Assembly (NCBI RefSeq): GCF_014879975.1
Contig: NZ_CP062501.1
Span: 930,001-994,000 of the forward strand
Origin: Vibrio bathopelagicus
GTDB taxonomy: Bacteria; Pseudomonadota; Gammaproteobacteria; Enterobacterales; Vibrionaceae
DNA: 64,000 bases
Direction of reading: 5' to 3'
Of the stretch, positions 58,208-62,397 are shown piece by piece (position 1 is the first letter of the stretch; each line of letters opens with the position of its first letter). The position numbers and the translations under genes are program-made. The notes beneath the pieces were generated by a model. That model worked only from the letters and a program-made list of their open reading frames with translations, was not told the DNA's origin and ran no database searches.

Positions 58208-59557
58208 ATGACTGAATTGAACCAAAAAAGTGAATTAAATATAGATAAACTCACTAGCGATTTCCCATTGCTAAAACAACTGATAGCACTTGAAGAGGTG
58301 AATTGGTTTAACCCAAATATCACCACGCTAGAGCAGGGGTTACCTTATGTAGGCATGGGCGACAAAGACATTCACGATGCGAGCTTGCGATTAAAAAGGT
58401 TTGCTCCTTATCTGGCAAAGGCATTCCCTGAAACTCAAGTAGCCAACGGCATTATTGAGTCTGAGCTTATTGATATCCCTTTGATGAAATCAGTACTGGA
58501 AGATCATTATCAGTTGCCGATTAAAGGCCGCTTGATGATGAAAAAAGACAGCCACTTGCCGATTTCTGGTTCAATCAAAGCGCGTGGCGGTATTTATGAA
58601 GTACTAACGCATGCCGAAAAGCTTGCGATTGAAGCTGGATTGCTGAGTGAGAGCGATGATTACAGCAAGCTGTTAGAGCCTGAATTTCGTGACTTCTTTA
58701 AACAATACAGTATTGCCGTTGGGTCGACAGGTAACCTTGGCATGTCTATCGGCATCATGAGTGCCAAGCTTGGTTTTACGGTATCGGTTCACATGTCTGC
58801 TGATGCAAGAGCGTGGAAGAAGAACAAACTGCGTGAGCATGGCGTCAATGTCGTTGAGTACGAACAAGACTATGGTGTCGCGGTAGAACAAGGTCGTAAA
58901 GAAGCTGAGCAAGACCCGCGTTGTTTCTTCATTGATGATGAGAACTCTCAAACCTTGTTCCTTGGTTATTCTGTGGCGGGAGAGAGGCTCAAACAACAAT
59001 TCGAACAACAACAGGTTGTCGTCGACAAAGAGCACCCATTGTTCGTTTACTTACCATGTGGTGTTGGTGGCGGCCCTGGTGGTGTGGCATTTGGCTTAAA
59101 GATGGCGTTTGGTGATGATGTTCACTGTATTTTTGCTGAGCCGACTCATTCTCCTTGCATGTTGTTGGGTGTTCACACTGGCTTGCATGACGAAATCTCA
59201 GTTCAAGATCTTGGTATTGATAACTTGACCGCAGCAGACGGGCTTGCAGTAGGCCGTGCGTCTGGTTTTGTTGGCCGAGCAATGGAACGCTTATTAGATG
59301 GTTATTACACATTAACAGACGAACGGATGTATCAACTGTTGAGTGAATTGGATCAAGCCGAAGGTATTCAGTTAGAGCCTTCTGCATTGGCTGGTATGCC
59401 GGGTGCTATTCATGTTGAACACAACAGTGAATATCTGGAGAGGTTAGGCATCGCTGAATCTACATTAGCGAGCGCGACTCATCTTGTTTGGGCAACCGGT
59501 GGCGGTATGGTTCCAGAGCAAGAAATGGCAGAGTATCTTGCTAAGTCTTCGTTGTAA
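58208..59557 (+). CDS. dsdA: D-serine ammonia-lyase (dehydratase)
   Basis: This 449-residue PLP enzyme converts D-serine to pyruvate and ammonia. Visible family features are SGSIKARGG with the Schiff-base Lys K124, the phosphate-binding GSTGNLG near 178-184, [10 protein letters not shown] near 288, and the C-terminal ATGGGMV. Length matches E. coli DsdA. AAGG precedes the ATG by six bases. It lets the cell use or detoxify D-serine, with DsdC as activator. No dsdX permease is present in the window. Confidence 0.96.
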
Positions 59558-60525: not shown

Positions 60526-60658
60526 TACATTTACTTACGATGTGCATATTCAATAGTTTCTGTTTTGAAACGCCTCGAAAACCGGTTTCGGTACGTTAGT
60601 TTTATTGTCTACCAATAAAAGGGTTGTCGCTAACTCTTATTATTGGTAGGTTTTAATA

Positions 60659-60712
60659 ATGAAATTTAATTCCGCTTCAACTTCAATTTTCTTTTGGTGG
60701 TGCTCTATCTAG
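60659..60712 (+). CDS. 17-codon leader peptide with tandem Trp codons, upstream of trpS
   Basis: The short frame reads ATG, then codons for a 17-residue peptide MKFNSASTSIFFWWCSI and TAG. Codons 13 and 14 (60695-60700) are consecutive TGG. TAGG lies eight bases before the ATG. The stop sits inside the loop and 3-prime arm of a stable hairpin. The layout is that of a ribosome-mediated attenuator sensing charged tRNA-Trp, placed 109 bases ahead of a tryptophanyl-tRNA synthetase gene. It was found by reading, not by homology. Confidence 0.8.
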   Translation: MKFNSASTSIFFWWCSI

Positions 60713-60816
60713 AGCAGCACGGAATACTCACATTCTTTAGCTGCTGGAAGGTAGTTAAGAATGTCACCAAGAATGTCGTCTCTTTTTATCTCCAGTAGCT
60801 TTTATTACTTGGAGAT
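60697..60816 (+). promoter_or_regulatory. Trp-responsive attenuator of trpS with SD-sequestering hairpin
   Basis: Hairpin A pairs 60697-60706 with 60711-60720 (one mismatch) and overlaps the second Trp codon. Segment 60713-60718 (AGCAGC) can instead pair with 60740-60745 (GCTGCT). ACATTCTT at 60730-60737 can pair with either of two identical AAGAATGT copies (60757-60764, 60769-60776). A final hairpin (60788-60797 with 60806-60816) buries the GGAG ribosome site of trpS (60811-60814). A ribosome stalled at the Trp codons would block hairpin A and change the downstream folds. Translational rather than transcriptional control looks likelier, as no GC-rich stem directly precedes the T-run at 60783-60787. 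Confidence 0.7.
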
Positions 60817-60821
60817 ACCCC

Positions 60822-61844
60822 ATGAAAACACCGCAAAACACGAACAAACCAGAAATTATTCTGACTGGCGACCGAGCGACAGGTCCTTTACATCTGGGTC
60901 ACTATGTTGGTTCGCTTCAGCAGCGTGCCTCATTGCAACATATTCACGACCAAACGATATTGGTCGCTGACATGCAAGGGCTTACCGACAATGCACATAA
61001 CCCTGCCAAGGTTTCGTCTAACATTCTCAATGTGGTGGCTGATTATCTAGCGGTGGGTATAGACCCAACAAAAACCACAATCTGCCTTCAATCACAATTG
61101 CCAGCACTGGCTGAACTCACCATGTTCTACAGCAACCTTGTGTCTATCGCTCGTTTGGAGCGCAATCCAACCGTTAAAAGTGAGATTCAAAACAAGGAGT
61201 TTGGCCGCTCAATTCCGGCTGGTTTTCTTACTTATCCGATTTCACAAGCGGCTGATATCACAGCCTTTAACGCGACTTTGATTCCTGTGGGTGACGACCA
61301 ATTGCCGATGCTAGAACAGACCAACGAGATCGTGAGAAAAGTTAACTCACTCGCGGGCAAACCAATCTTAAATGAGTGTAAACCGTTGCTGAGCAATGCC
61401 TCTCGCCTCCCGAGTACGGACGGTAAGAACAAGATGTCCAAATCAATGGGCAACGCTATCAACTTAGGCGCGACCGAGAAAGAGATTCGAGCAGCAGTCA
61501 AATCCATGTATACCGACCCAAATCATCTACGAATCGAAGATCCGGGCCAAGTAGAAGGCAATATCGTATTTACTTATCTCGATGCTTTCCATGCTGACGT
61601 TCACTACGTCAATGAACTAAAAGATCACTACCGCAGAGGCGGATTAGGGGATGGCCAAACTAAGAAGGTATTGGAAGAGTGTCTACAAGAGATGATTCGC
61701 CCGATTAGAGCACGTAGAGCCGAATTGTTGGATGACAAAGCGCAACTTATCGATATCTTGCGCAAAGGCACGCAAGTATCGAGAGAAAGAACAGAAACTG
61801 TGTTGTTTGATGTTAAAGAACTATTTGGCCTGAACATCTTGTAA
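60822..61844 (+). CDS. trpS: Auxiliary tryptophanyl-tRNA synthetase
   Basis: This 340-residue class I synthetase has HLGH (within GPLHLGHYVG) and NKMSKSMGN signatures, ADMQGLTDN and GDDQLPMLEQT blocks, and normal TrpRS length. It charges tRNA-Trp. The usual Vibrio trpS lies in a dam-rpe-gph-trpS cluster; that context is absent, so this is probably a second copy. The leader with tandem Trp codons suggests it is made when charged tRNA-Trp falls. In Streptomyces an auxiliary, attenuator-controlled TrpRS confers indolmycin resistance, a good model here. Confidence 0.93.
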   Translation: MKTPQNTNKPEIILTGDRATGPLHLGHYVGSLQQRASLQHIHDQTILVADMQGLTDNAHNPAKVSSNILNVVADYLAVGIDPTKTTICLQSQLPALAELTMFYSNLVSIARLERNPTVKSEIQNKEFGRSIPAGFLTYPISQAADITAFNATLIPVGDDQLPMLEQTNEIVRKVNSLAGKPILNECKPLLSNASRLPSTDGKNKMSKSMGNAINLGATEKEIRAAVKSMYTDPNHLRIEDPGQVEGNIVFTYLDAFHADVHYVNELKDHYRRGGLGDGQTKKVLEECLQEMIRPIRARRAELLDDKAQLIDILRKGTQVSRERTETVLFDVKELFGLNIL

Positions 61845-62010: not shown

Positions 62011-62397
62011 ATGATTAAATTGGAAATCAGTCATTTAGATCACTTGGTGCTAACTGTTAAAGATATAGAGGTAACGGTCGATTTTTATCAGCGCGTATTA
62101 GGTATGAAGCCCATCCAATTCGGGGAAGGACGTTTGGCGTTGTCGTTCGGCAATCAAAAGATAAATTTACACCTTTCCGGTAGCGAGTTCGAGCCAAAGG
62201 CAAGGCATGTGCAGGTCGGTAGTGCAGACCTCTGCTTTGTTACCAATACACCAATTGTTGAGGTCGTAGAGCATATCCAAGCGCAAGGAGTCGTGGTCGA
62301 AGAGGGACCAGTTACGCGAACAGGTGCAATGGGAAAAATTGTCTCTGTTTATATTCGAGATCCTGATGGCAATCTGATTGAGGTCTCGAATTATTAG
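62011..62397 (+). CDS. VOC (glyoxalase/fosfomycin-resistance fold) protein
   Basis: This 128-residue single-domain protein has the paired beta-alpha-beta-beta-beta modules of the VOC family: LDHLVLTVKDI with a metal-ligand His near residue 9, and DPDGNLIEVSNY with Glu at the end. Such proteins are metal-dependent lyases, dioxygenases or antibiotic-inactivating enzymes, and the substrate is unknown. Start uncertain: the ATG at 62011 directly abuts the AAGG, whereas a TTG at 62020 is correctly spaced behind AAGGAT. The longer frame from 61900 has no SD. Confidence 0.85.
   Translation: MIKLEISHLDHLVLTVKDIEVTVDFYQRVLGMKPIQFGEGRLALSFGNQKINLHLSGSEFEPKARHVQVGSADLCFVTNTPIVEVVEHIQAQGVVVEEGPVTRTGAMGKIVSVYIRDPDGNLIEVSNY

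Follow-up and report, generated by a model that had tools for sequence, protein, structure and literature searches.

A conserved tryptophan-codon leader, probably a translational attenuator, precedes an auxiliary tryptophanyl-tRNA synthetase gene in Vibrio bathopelagicus and its relatives

Why should a bacterium keep a second, divergent gene for tryptophanyl-tRNA synthetase (TrpRS), and why should a short reading frame with two adjacent tryptophan codons stand in front of it? This question is raised by a locus of Vibrio bathopelagicus (GCF_014879975.1, V. splendidus clade), located in a stretch of 64,000 nucleotides that we analysed as a whole and call the window (NZ_CP062501.1, positions 930,001-994,000). 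A preliminary description of this DNA had read the locus as a ribosome-stalling switch ahead of an auxiliary trpS, hereafter trpS2. The conserved Trp-Trp (WW) frame, the covarying exclusive helices and the linkage to trpS2 bear out this attenuator reading, and we consider it likely that the element is a ribosome-mediated translational attenuator of the auxiliary TrpRS. Its features are listed in Table 1.

Table 1. Features of the trpS2 leader region, in positions of the window.
Feature	Positions	Strand	Basis or remark
-35-like hexamer TTGTCG, 17 nt before the -10-like hexamer	60624..60629	+	locus consensus
-10-like hexamer TAGGTT, 6 nt before the leader ATG	60647..60652	+	locus consensus
Leader ORF, 17 codons and TAG, MKFNSASTSIFFWWCSI	60659..60712	+	frame ATG...TGG TGG TGC TCT ATC TAG
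Regulatory TGG TGG codons	60695..60700	+	invariant in alignment A1; WW in 79/80 loci
Segment A, partner of B (as 5' arm); overlaps the Trp codons	60697..60706	+	A:B covariation
Segment B, partner of A (as 3' arm) and of C (as 5' arm); the stop codon (60710-60712) overlaps its start	60711..60725	+	
Segment C, partner of B, D or E	60732..60748	+	alignment pairing
Segment D, partner of C (as 3' arm) and, at its start, also of E	60750..60763	+	
Segment E, partner of C/D 60740-60753 in the ON state and of F in the OFF state	60787..60799	+	
Segment F, GGAGATA, includes the trpS2 Shine-Dalgarno	60811..60817	+	E:F covariation
trpS2, auxiliary tryptophanyl-tRNA synthetase, 340 aa	60822..61844	+	TIGR00233 above cut-off

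The auxiliary nature of the synthetase was examined from its product and from the other tryptophan genes of the genome. The trpS2 product scores 226.7 bits against TIGR00233 (tryptophan--tRNA ligase, curated cut-off 176.75), and another contig of the same genome encodes a second TrpRS (trpS1), 29% identical to it, so that the gene is auxiliary as had been proposed. Its best solved relatives, 1yi8 (E 4e-105) and 2a4m (E 2e-104), are both tryptophanyl-tRNA synthetase II, presumably from Deinococcus radiodurans. No Trp-rich leader was found at trpS1 of this genome. The trpE gene carries its own leader, MLQEFNQNHKDKVLELSSVEASSELNWWRTWTSSWWANVYF, and this region scores 71.4 bits with the Rfam model RF00513 (Trp_leader). 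The trpS2 leader scores 13.6 bits with the same model (E 6), below the gathering cut-off of 41, and no Rfam family, T-box included, matched the window at its cut-off.

As first described, the 17-codon frame overlaps a hairpin (60697-60706 with 60711-60720). Its stop codon lies 109 nt before the trpS2 ATG, which itself forms the 3' boundary of the element (60822). It had been set beforehand that a frame or Trp codons not conserved in related species would speak against a switch, and the outcome was the opposite. In the best 80 of 150 confirmed relatives, a sample thus biased to close relatives, the WW leader frame is kept in 79 loci, and the sole locus that does not show it (L032) lies on a contig starting 201 nt 5' of trpS2. 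The 79 WW-leader loci belong to Vibrio, Photobacterium, Alteromonas, Shewanella, Pseudoalteromonas, Colwellia and Cocleimonas, the nearest named relatives in this sample being Vibrio lentus, a Vibrio isolate and V. tasmaniensis; across loci the leader stop is 88-128 nt from the chosen trpS2 start. The earlier leader codons vary, unlike TGG TGG. Substitutions at codon positions 1, 2 and 3 numbered 155, 158 and 268 between similar leaders (105 non-independent pairs), a pattern that is a mild sign of coding. These sequence comparisons confirm the WW leader before the auxiliary trpS as real and conserved, a short frame with codons for the amino acid that would be sensed.

How this frame is expressed was approached through its upstream region, using 72 non-redundant sequences (80 sequences, the window and 79 loci, minus near-identical ones). 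Counted with the leader ATG as +1, they share the consensus TTG at -35 to -33 (T -35 97%, T -34 76%, G -33 75%), TAnnTT at -12 to -7 (T -12 75%, A -11 79%, T -8 88%, T -7 86%) and G at -14 (78%). A Shine-Dalgarno (SD) four-mer precedes the leader in 13/72 loci, which is not commoner than in shuffled sequences (15.7 ± 3.2), and precedes trpS2 in 71/72. Judged from these patterns, the A of the leader ATG is probably the first base of the transcript, which would make the leader itself leaderless, and the ribosome would then begin at the 5' end. A consensus promoter scan of the window did not report the TTGTCG/TAGGTT pair; a search of hexamers locus by locus gave a gap of 6 or 7 nt in 51 of the 72 sequences and chose a different hexamer in the window. 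A strong inverted repeat (60608-60650, CTACCAATAA...TTATTGGTAG) lies 5' of the predicted transcript start and overlaps the putative promoter; by eye it is common to L003 and L004 and not to most relatives.

The RNA from 60600 to 60850 folds at -68.1 kcal/mol, compared to -46.9 ± 4.5 kcal/mol in 200 shuffles (z -4.7), an excess to which a hairpin upstream of the leader contributes part. Segments A to F were defined on an alignment, A1, of 63 of the 72 sequences. The other nine (L049-L053, L062, L064, L071 and L072), in which a long insertion separates B from C or D from E, were left out of A1 and are included in the promoter, co-transcriptional and stop-position counts (n = 72). As the helices were picked by eye on these same sequences, the proportions of paired cells in A1 are biased upward: 98.2% for A:B, 96.1% for B:C, 92.0% for C:D, 97.0% for C/D:E and 94.3% for E:F. 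Stronger evidence comes from changes on both sides of a pair. They were seen in 58 cells at 6 pairs of C/D:E (15.2 in shuffles), in 13 cells of C:D (2.9 in shuffles), in 10 cells, at 1 pair, of E:F (3.3 in shuffles) and in 8 cells at 2 pairs of A:B, and sliding C/D:E by 1-3 columns left only 27-61% of cells paired. The B:C helix is weaker than the others, with only 2 cells changed on both sides; its upper stem has at least 5 pairs in 56 of 71 loci (L050 left out), compared to a mean of 10.6 in shuffles. C/D:E and E:F both use E and are hence mutually exclusive. The alternative pairings first noticed in one sequence thus covary among relatives, and the last hairpin, said to hide the trpS ribosome site, is present in the window (60787-60793 with 60811-60817). 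A short tandem repeat of the D arm, AAGAATGTC ACC AAGAATGTC, occupies 60757-60777 in the window and is single-copy in V. lentus (L003).

What the computation shows is a leader frame that is conserved and linked to trpS2, together with exclusive helices that covary; the start site, the stall, the direction of switching and the benefit are what we infer. The leader stop codon lies between the first two arms, as attenuators of the trp type require, three codons past the second Trp codon in 57/72 loci and four codons past it in 13/72. With this spacing, a ribosome at the stop codon would cover B, and a ribosome on the Trp codons would cover only A. We propose that transcription begins at the A of the leader ATG and that a ribosome loads at the 5' end of the transcript. 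When charged tRNA-Trp is plentiful, the ribosome would reach the stop codon and cover B, C:D would form, and E would be free for F, hiding the trpS2 SD (OFF). With little charged tRNA-Trp at hand, it would stall on TGG TGG and cover A, so that B:C would form and block C:D; the free end of C and the start of D could then capture E before F is made, leaving the SD accessible (ON). In this way, failure or inhibition of the first TrpRS would call up a second, divergent one.

Whether the switch acts on translation was judged against transcription attenuation, in which, as in the trp operon, abundant charged tRNA-Trp would let C:D or a later hairpin terminate transcription early. The hairpin logic is the same as that of trpL, and a Rho-dependent ending would be compatible with the leader. 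However, a T-run (at least 5 T in 8 nt) directly after C:D was found in 0/63 sequences, and a scan of the window leader detected no terminator-like site; since no terminator directly follows C:D, the likely output is translation. A T-rich stretch does lie further downstream (TTTTT at 60783-60787, 19 nt past D in the window and nearer in L003), and in Aeromonas caviae (L160, 2868-3003) a long C:D hairpin is followed by TTGTTTTC and may act as a terminator there. The strongest covariation nevertheless sits in the helices that decide whether the trpS2 SD is free, and we regard transcription attenuation as unlikely.

The direction of the translational switch was assessed with two folding models, which did not agree. 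At equilibrium, with the ribosome footprint removed, the median SD accessibility was about 0 in all states: the SD was more open in the stalled state than at the stop codon by more than 0.2 in 11/80 sequences (e.g. L059, L061, L067), the reverse was seen in 8/80, and 61/80 showed no difference. In medians, the OFF state was about 5 kcal/mol better even with a stalled ribosome, so that the switch would need to be kinetic, and once B:C had formed, B:C with E:F was about 3 kcal/mol better than B:C with D:E. The co-transcriptional model is a custom simplification with findpath barriers, read out 1 s after synthesis; the probability of the SD hairpin was made its main read-out after the SD of the stalled window had been seen in weak stray pairs. 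Here the mean probability (n = 72) was 0.49 with the ribosome stalled on Trp-Trp, 0.94 at the stop codon and 0.67 without ribosome, and the mean unpaired fraction of the SD was 0.35, 0.04 and 0.05, respectively. Stalling lowered the hairpin probability by more than 0.2 in 45/72 sequences, raised it in one (L064) and left it within 0.2 in 26; without ribosome it was below 0.2 in 15/72. In the window it was 0.00 stalled, 1.00 at the stop codon and 0.74 without ribosome, yet the stalled SD was only 6% unpaired because the model places it in weak stray pairs. Of seven leaders from enterobacteria and Aeromonas, two behaved as predicted (L151, L152), one was reversed (L160) and four were unmoved. 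The alternative folds of the preliminary description were thus not separated at equilibrium and were separated in the predicted sense by most co-transcriptional runs. With results so mixed, the models suggest that stalling would open the SD in the marine group, a sign that is supported but not settled and that we do not extend to other groups.

The same models bear on two further readings of these parts. If stalling led to B:C and thereby denied C to E, trpS2 would be switched off, as the median energies after B:C formation and the 8/80 equilibrium cases would have it; the co-transcriptional model moves this way in 1/72, and a synthetase silenced by shortage of its own product would make little sense, so that we give this opposite sign very little credence. 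It is just as improbable, in our view, that the region is a stable 5' leader whose short frame only delivers ribosomes to trpS2, with no Trp sensing. Equilibrium folds that are mostly closed in every state would fit such a leader, but the invariance of TGG TGG in A1 beside varying earlier codons and the covariation of several exclusive helices argue against it and for the Trp-sensing translational attenuator.

In order to follow the attenuator beyond this locus, we built a covariance model on 63 sequences. Its only match with E up to 10 in the 5.67 Mb genome was the trpS2 leader (150 of 1008 first-look candidates scored). In a sample of Vibrionaceae, the RNA occurred in 130/296 genomes, trpS2 in 130/296 and both in 127, and 129 of the 132 RNA matches adjoined a trpS2 on the same strand. 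The three matches without a full trpS2 precede a gene missing an inner stretch (G177), a remnant with 120 residues matched (G241) and a gene running into the contig end (G041). The trpS2 places without RNA in this sample are those of G094 (202 nt from the contig end), G001 and G021. In the order sample the RNA was found in 29/295 genomes, 22 outside the family and 7 also in the family sample, and 28 of the 29 matches lay before trpS2, that of G922 ending at a contig edge. The class sample gave 2 matches in 369 genomes, this genome and a weak match in G436 (26.6 bits, E 0.005), which was taken as probable chance, there being no trpS2 in the 4.5 kb covered. Two genomes (G134, G222) have two trpS2 places each, one a shorter match, with the RNA leader at both. 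A metagenome-assembled genome named Desulfobacterium (L063) holds a trpS2 of 73% identity with a WW leader, through transfer or a binning error.

We then sought trpS1 in 34 genomes, 30 of them from the family. One family member, G021, has only a TrpRS of the trpS2 type, and its leader was absent in two scans, while G001 has both TrpRS types yet no leader and is thus an exception to a spare/sole pattern. In four distant genomes whose sole TrpRS match is of the trpS2 type (G345, G358, G390, G654), no leader was found, and the enzymes are only 43-54% identical. These genomes offer a natural comparison, with the leader present where the enzyme is spare and absent in one family genome where it is the sole TrpRS. 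The predicted leaderless start, the six-segment logic, the spread past Vibrio and the sole trpS2-type gene of G021 that lacks the leader all go beyond the preliminary description.

A protein relative of the trpS2 product was present in 90 plasmid records, of which five were opened. WW leaders were found in a Klebsiella pneumoniae record, chromosome-sized and labelled plasmid (MNRNVIVTYPRLWWLPA, 35.4 bits with the model), in a 48 kb E. coli plasmid (MNINHAVLTVNRWWLPS, 33.4 bits) and in an 8.5 kb Salmonella record (MNTKRSNATQRHLRWWLPS, 32.5 bits). A Trp-Trp leader is also present in the Aeromonas caviae record, where the model gives it only 12.6 bits (E 0.3), and no leader was found in the Acinetobacter baumannii record. 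Among 5426 complete E. coli genomes, two match most of the region, both on plasmids, and a third matches 12% of it, in fosA only. Phage records did not match the leader DNA. On the E. coli plasmid pKTa005_5 (L158, 496-5002), the leader and trpS2 lie beside an IS3000 transposase and a partial fosA8-like stretch.

An attenuator before a trpS is known from Streptomyces, as the preliminary description had stated. A title by Vecchione and Sello (2010) reportedly names transcriptional attenuation of Streptomyces trpS. Excerpts of published accounts describe a Trp-codon leader on a leaderless transcript before trpS in S. lividans (trpL2-trpS), where the trpE leader is leaderless too (PMC8079986), and a predicted attenuator before trpS2 of S. 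avermitilis (PMC1262725). Like the Vibrio element, S. lividans trpL2-trpS has a Trp leader and then hairpins, and no uridine-rich stretch was found after the leader, but its leader has one Trp codon where that of Vibrio has two (PMC8079986, in part). The excerpts describe no SD-masking stage for the Streptomyces attenuator, which also belongs to another phylum; we liken the two by regulatory layout alone, not by enzyme orthology. The trp operon leader (RF00513) shares Trp codons and competing hairpins with the trpS2 leader, which differs in adding an SD-masking switch without a terminator. In Sinorhizobium meliloti the trpL transcript starts with the ATG of the leader ORF and so resembles the leaderless start predicted here, but trpL controls trpE(G) by transcription attenuation (PMC7298713, in part). 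The gammaproteobacterial pheST operon is also an aminoacyl-tRNA synthetase operon with an attenuator, for Phe, called classical in the excerpt (PMC1262725). Deinococcus TrpRS II, the nearest solved relative of the trpS2 enzyme and likened to it by enzyme alone, is an auxiliary TrpRS induced by radiation damage (PMC9437257, in part). Among the titles and abstracts of open-licence papers listed, there was no account of a trpS leader for Vibrio or other Gammaproteobacteria, in line with the preliminary description, which knew of none for Vibrio. The trpS2 leader would work in the manner of the trp and Streptomyces trpS attenuators, but with SD masking as the probable output.

What would the cell gain from such a switch? 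The place of His43, which we located through a TrpRS1 motif, is occupied by Gln in 81/81 trpS2-type sequences and by His in TrpRS1. In excerpts of the literature, His43 of Bacillus stearothermophilus TrpRS is implicated in indolmycin sensitivity, its replacement by Asn giving resistance (PMC4899734), and marine Pseudoalteromonas, named in the preliminary description as indolmycin makers, are in print as such, with a putative cluster that seems to include a TrpRS (PMC5069768). Taken together, these points make protection from TrpRS inhibitors plausible, with the Gln residue only a hint that the trpS2 enzyme may be insensitive to indolmycin; simple Trp shortage would explain the benefit as well. 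If the attenuator reading is true, an RNA switch would keep a second TrpRS silent in many marine bacteria and in some records from enterobacteria and plasmids, which would bear on bacterial escape from natural TrpRS inhibitors, and the leader would be a translation-level reporter of Trp-tRNA charging. More tentatively, and with some doubt, we suggest that leader and gene form a mobile and self-contained backup-synthetase module, in which a leaderless WW leader responds to a failing TrpRS by opening translation of a divergent TrpRS with an altered Trp pocket, giving inducible protection from natural inhibitors such as indolmycin, and which has spread among marine Gammaproteobacteria and has also reached Enterobacteriaceae and plasmids.

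No conserved neighbourhood of trpS2 was found among the 80 loci, viewed mostly over 3 kb per side: a glyoxalase-like gene was found in 4/80, a D-serine ammonia-lyase gene in 7/80 and the third neighbour in 3/80. In the window, the D-serine ammonia-lyase gene (58208-59557) lies upstream of the leader, and 3' of trpS2 is a glyoxalase-fold gene (62014-62394) with sub-cut-off matches to fosfomycin thiol transferases.
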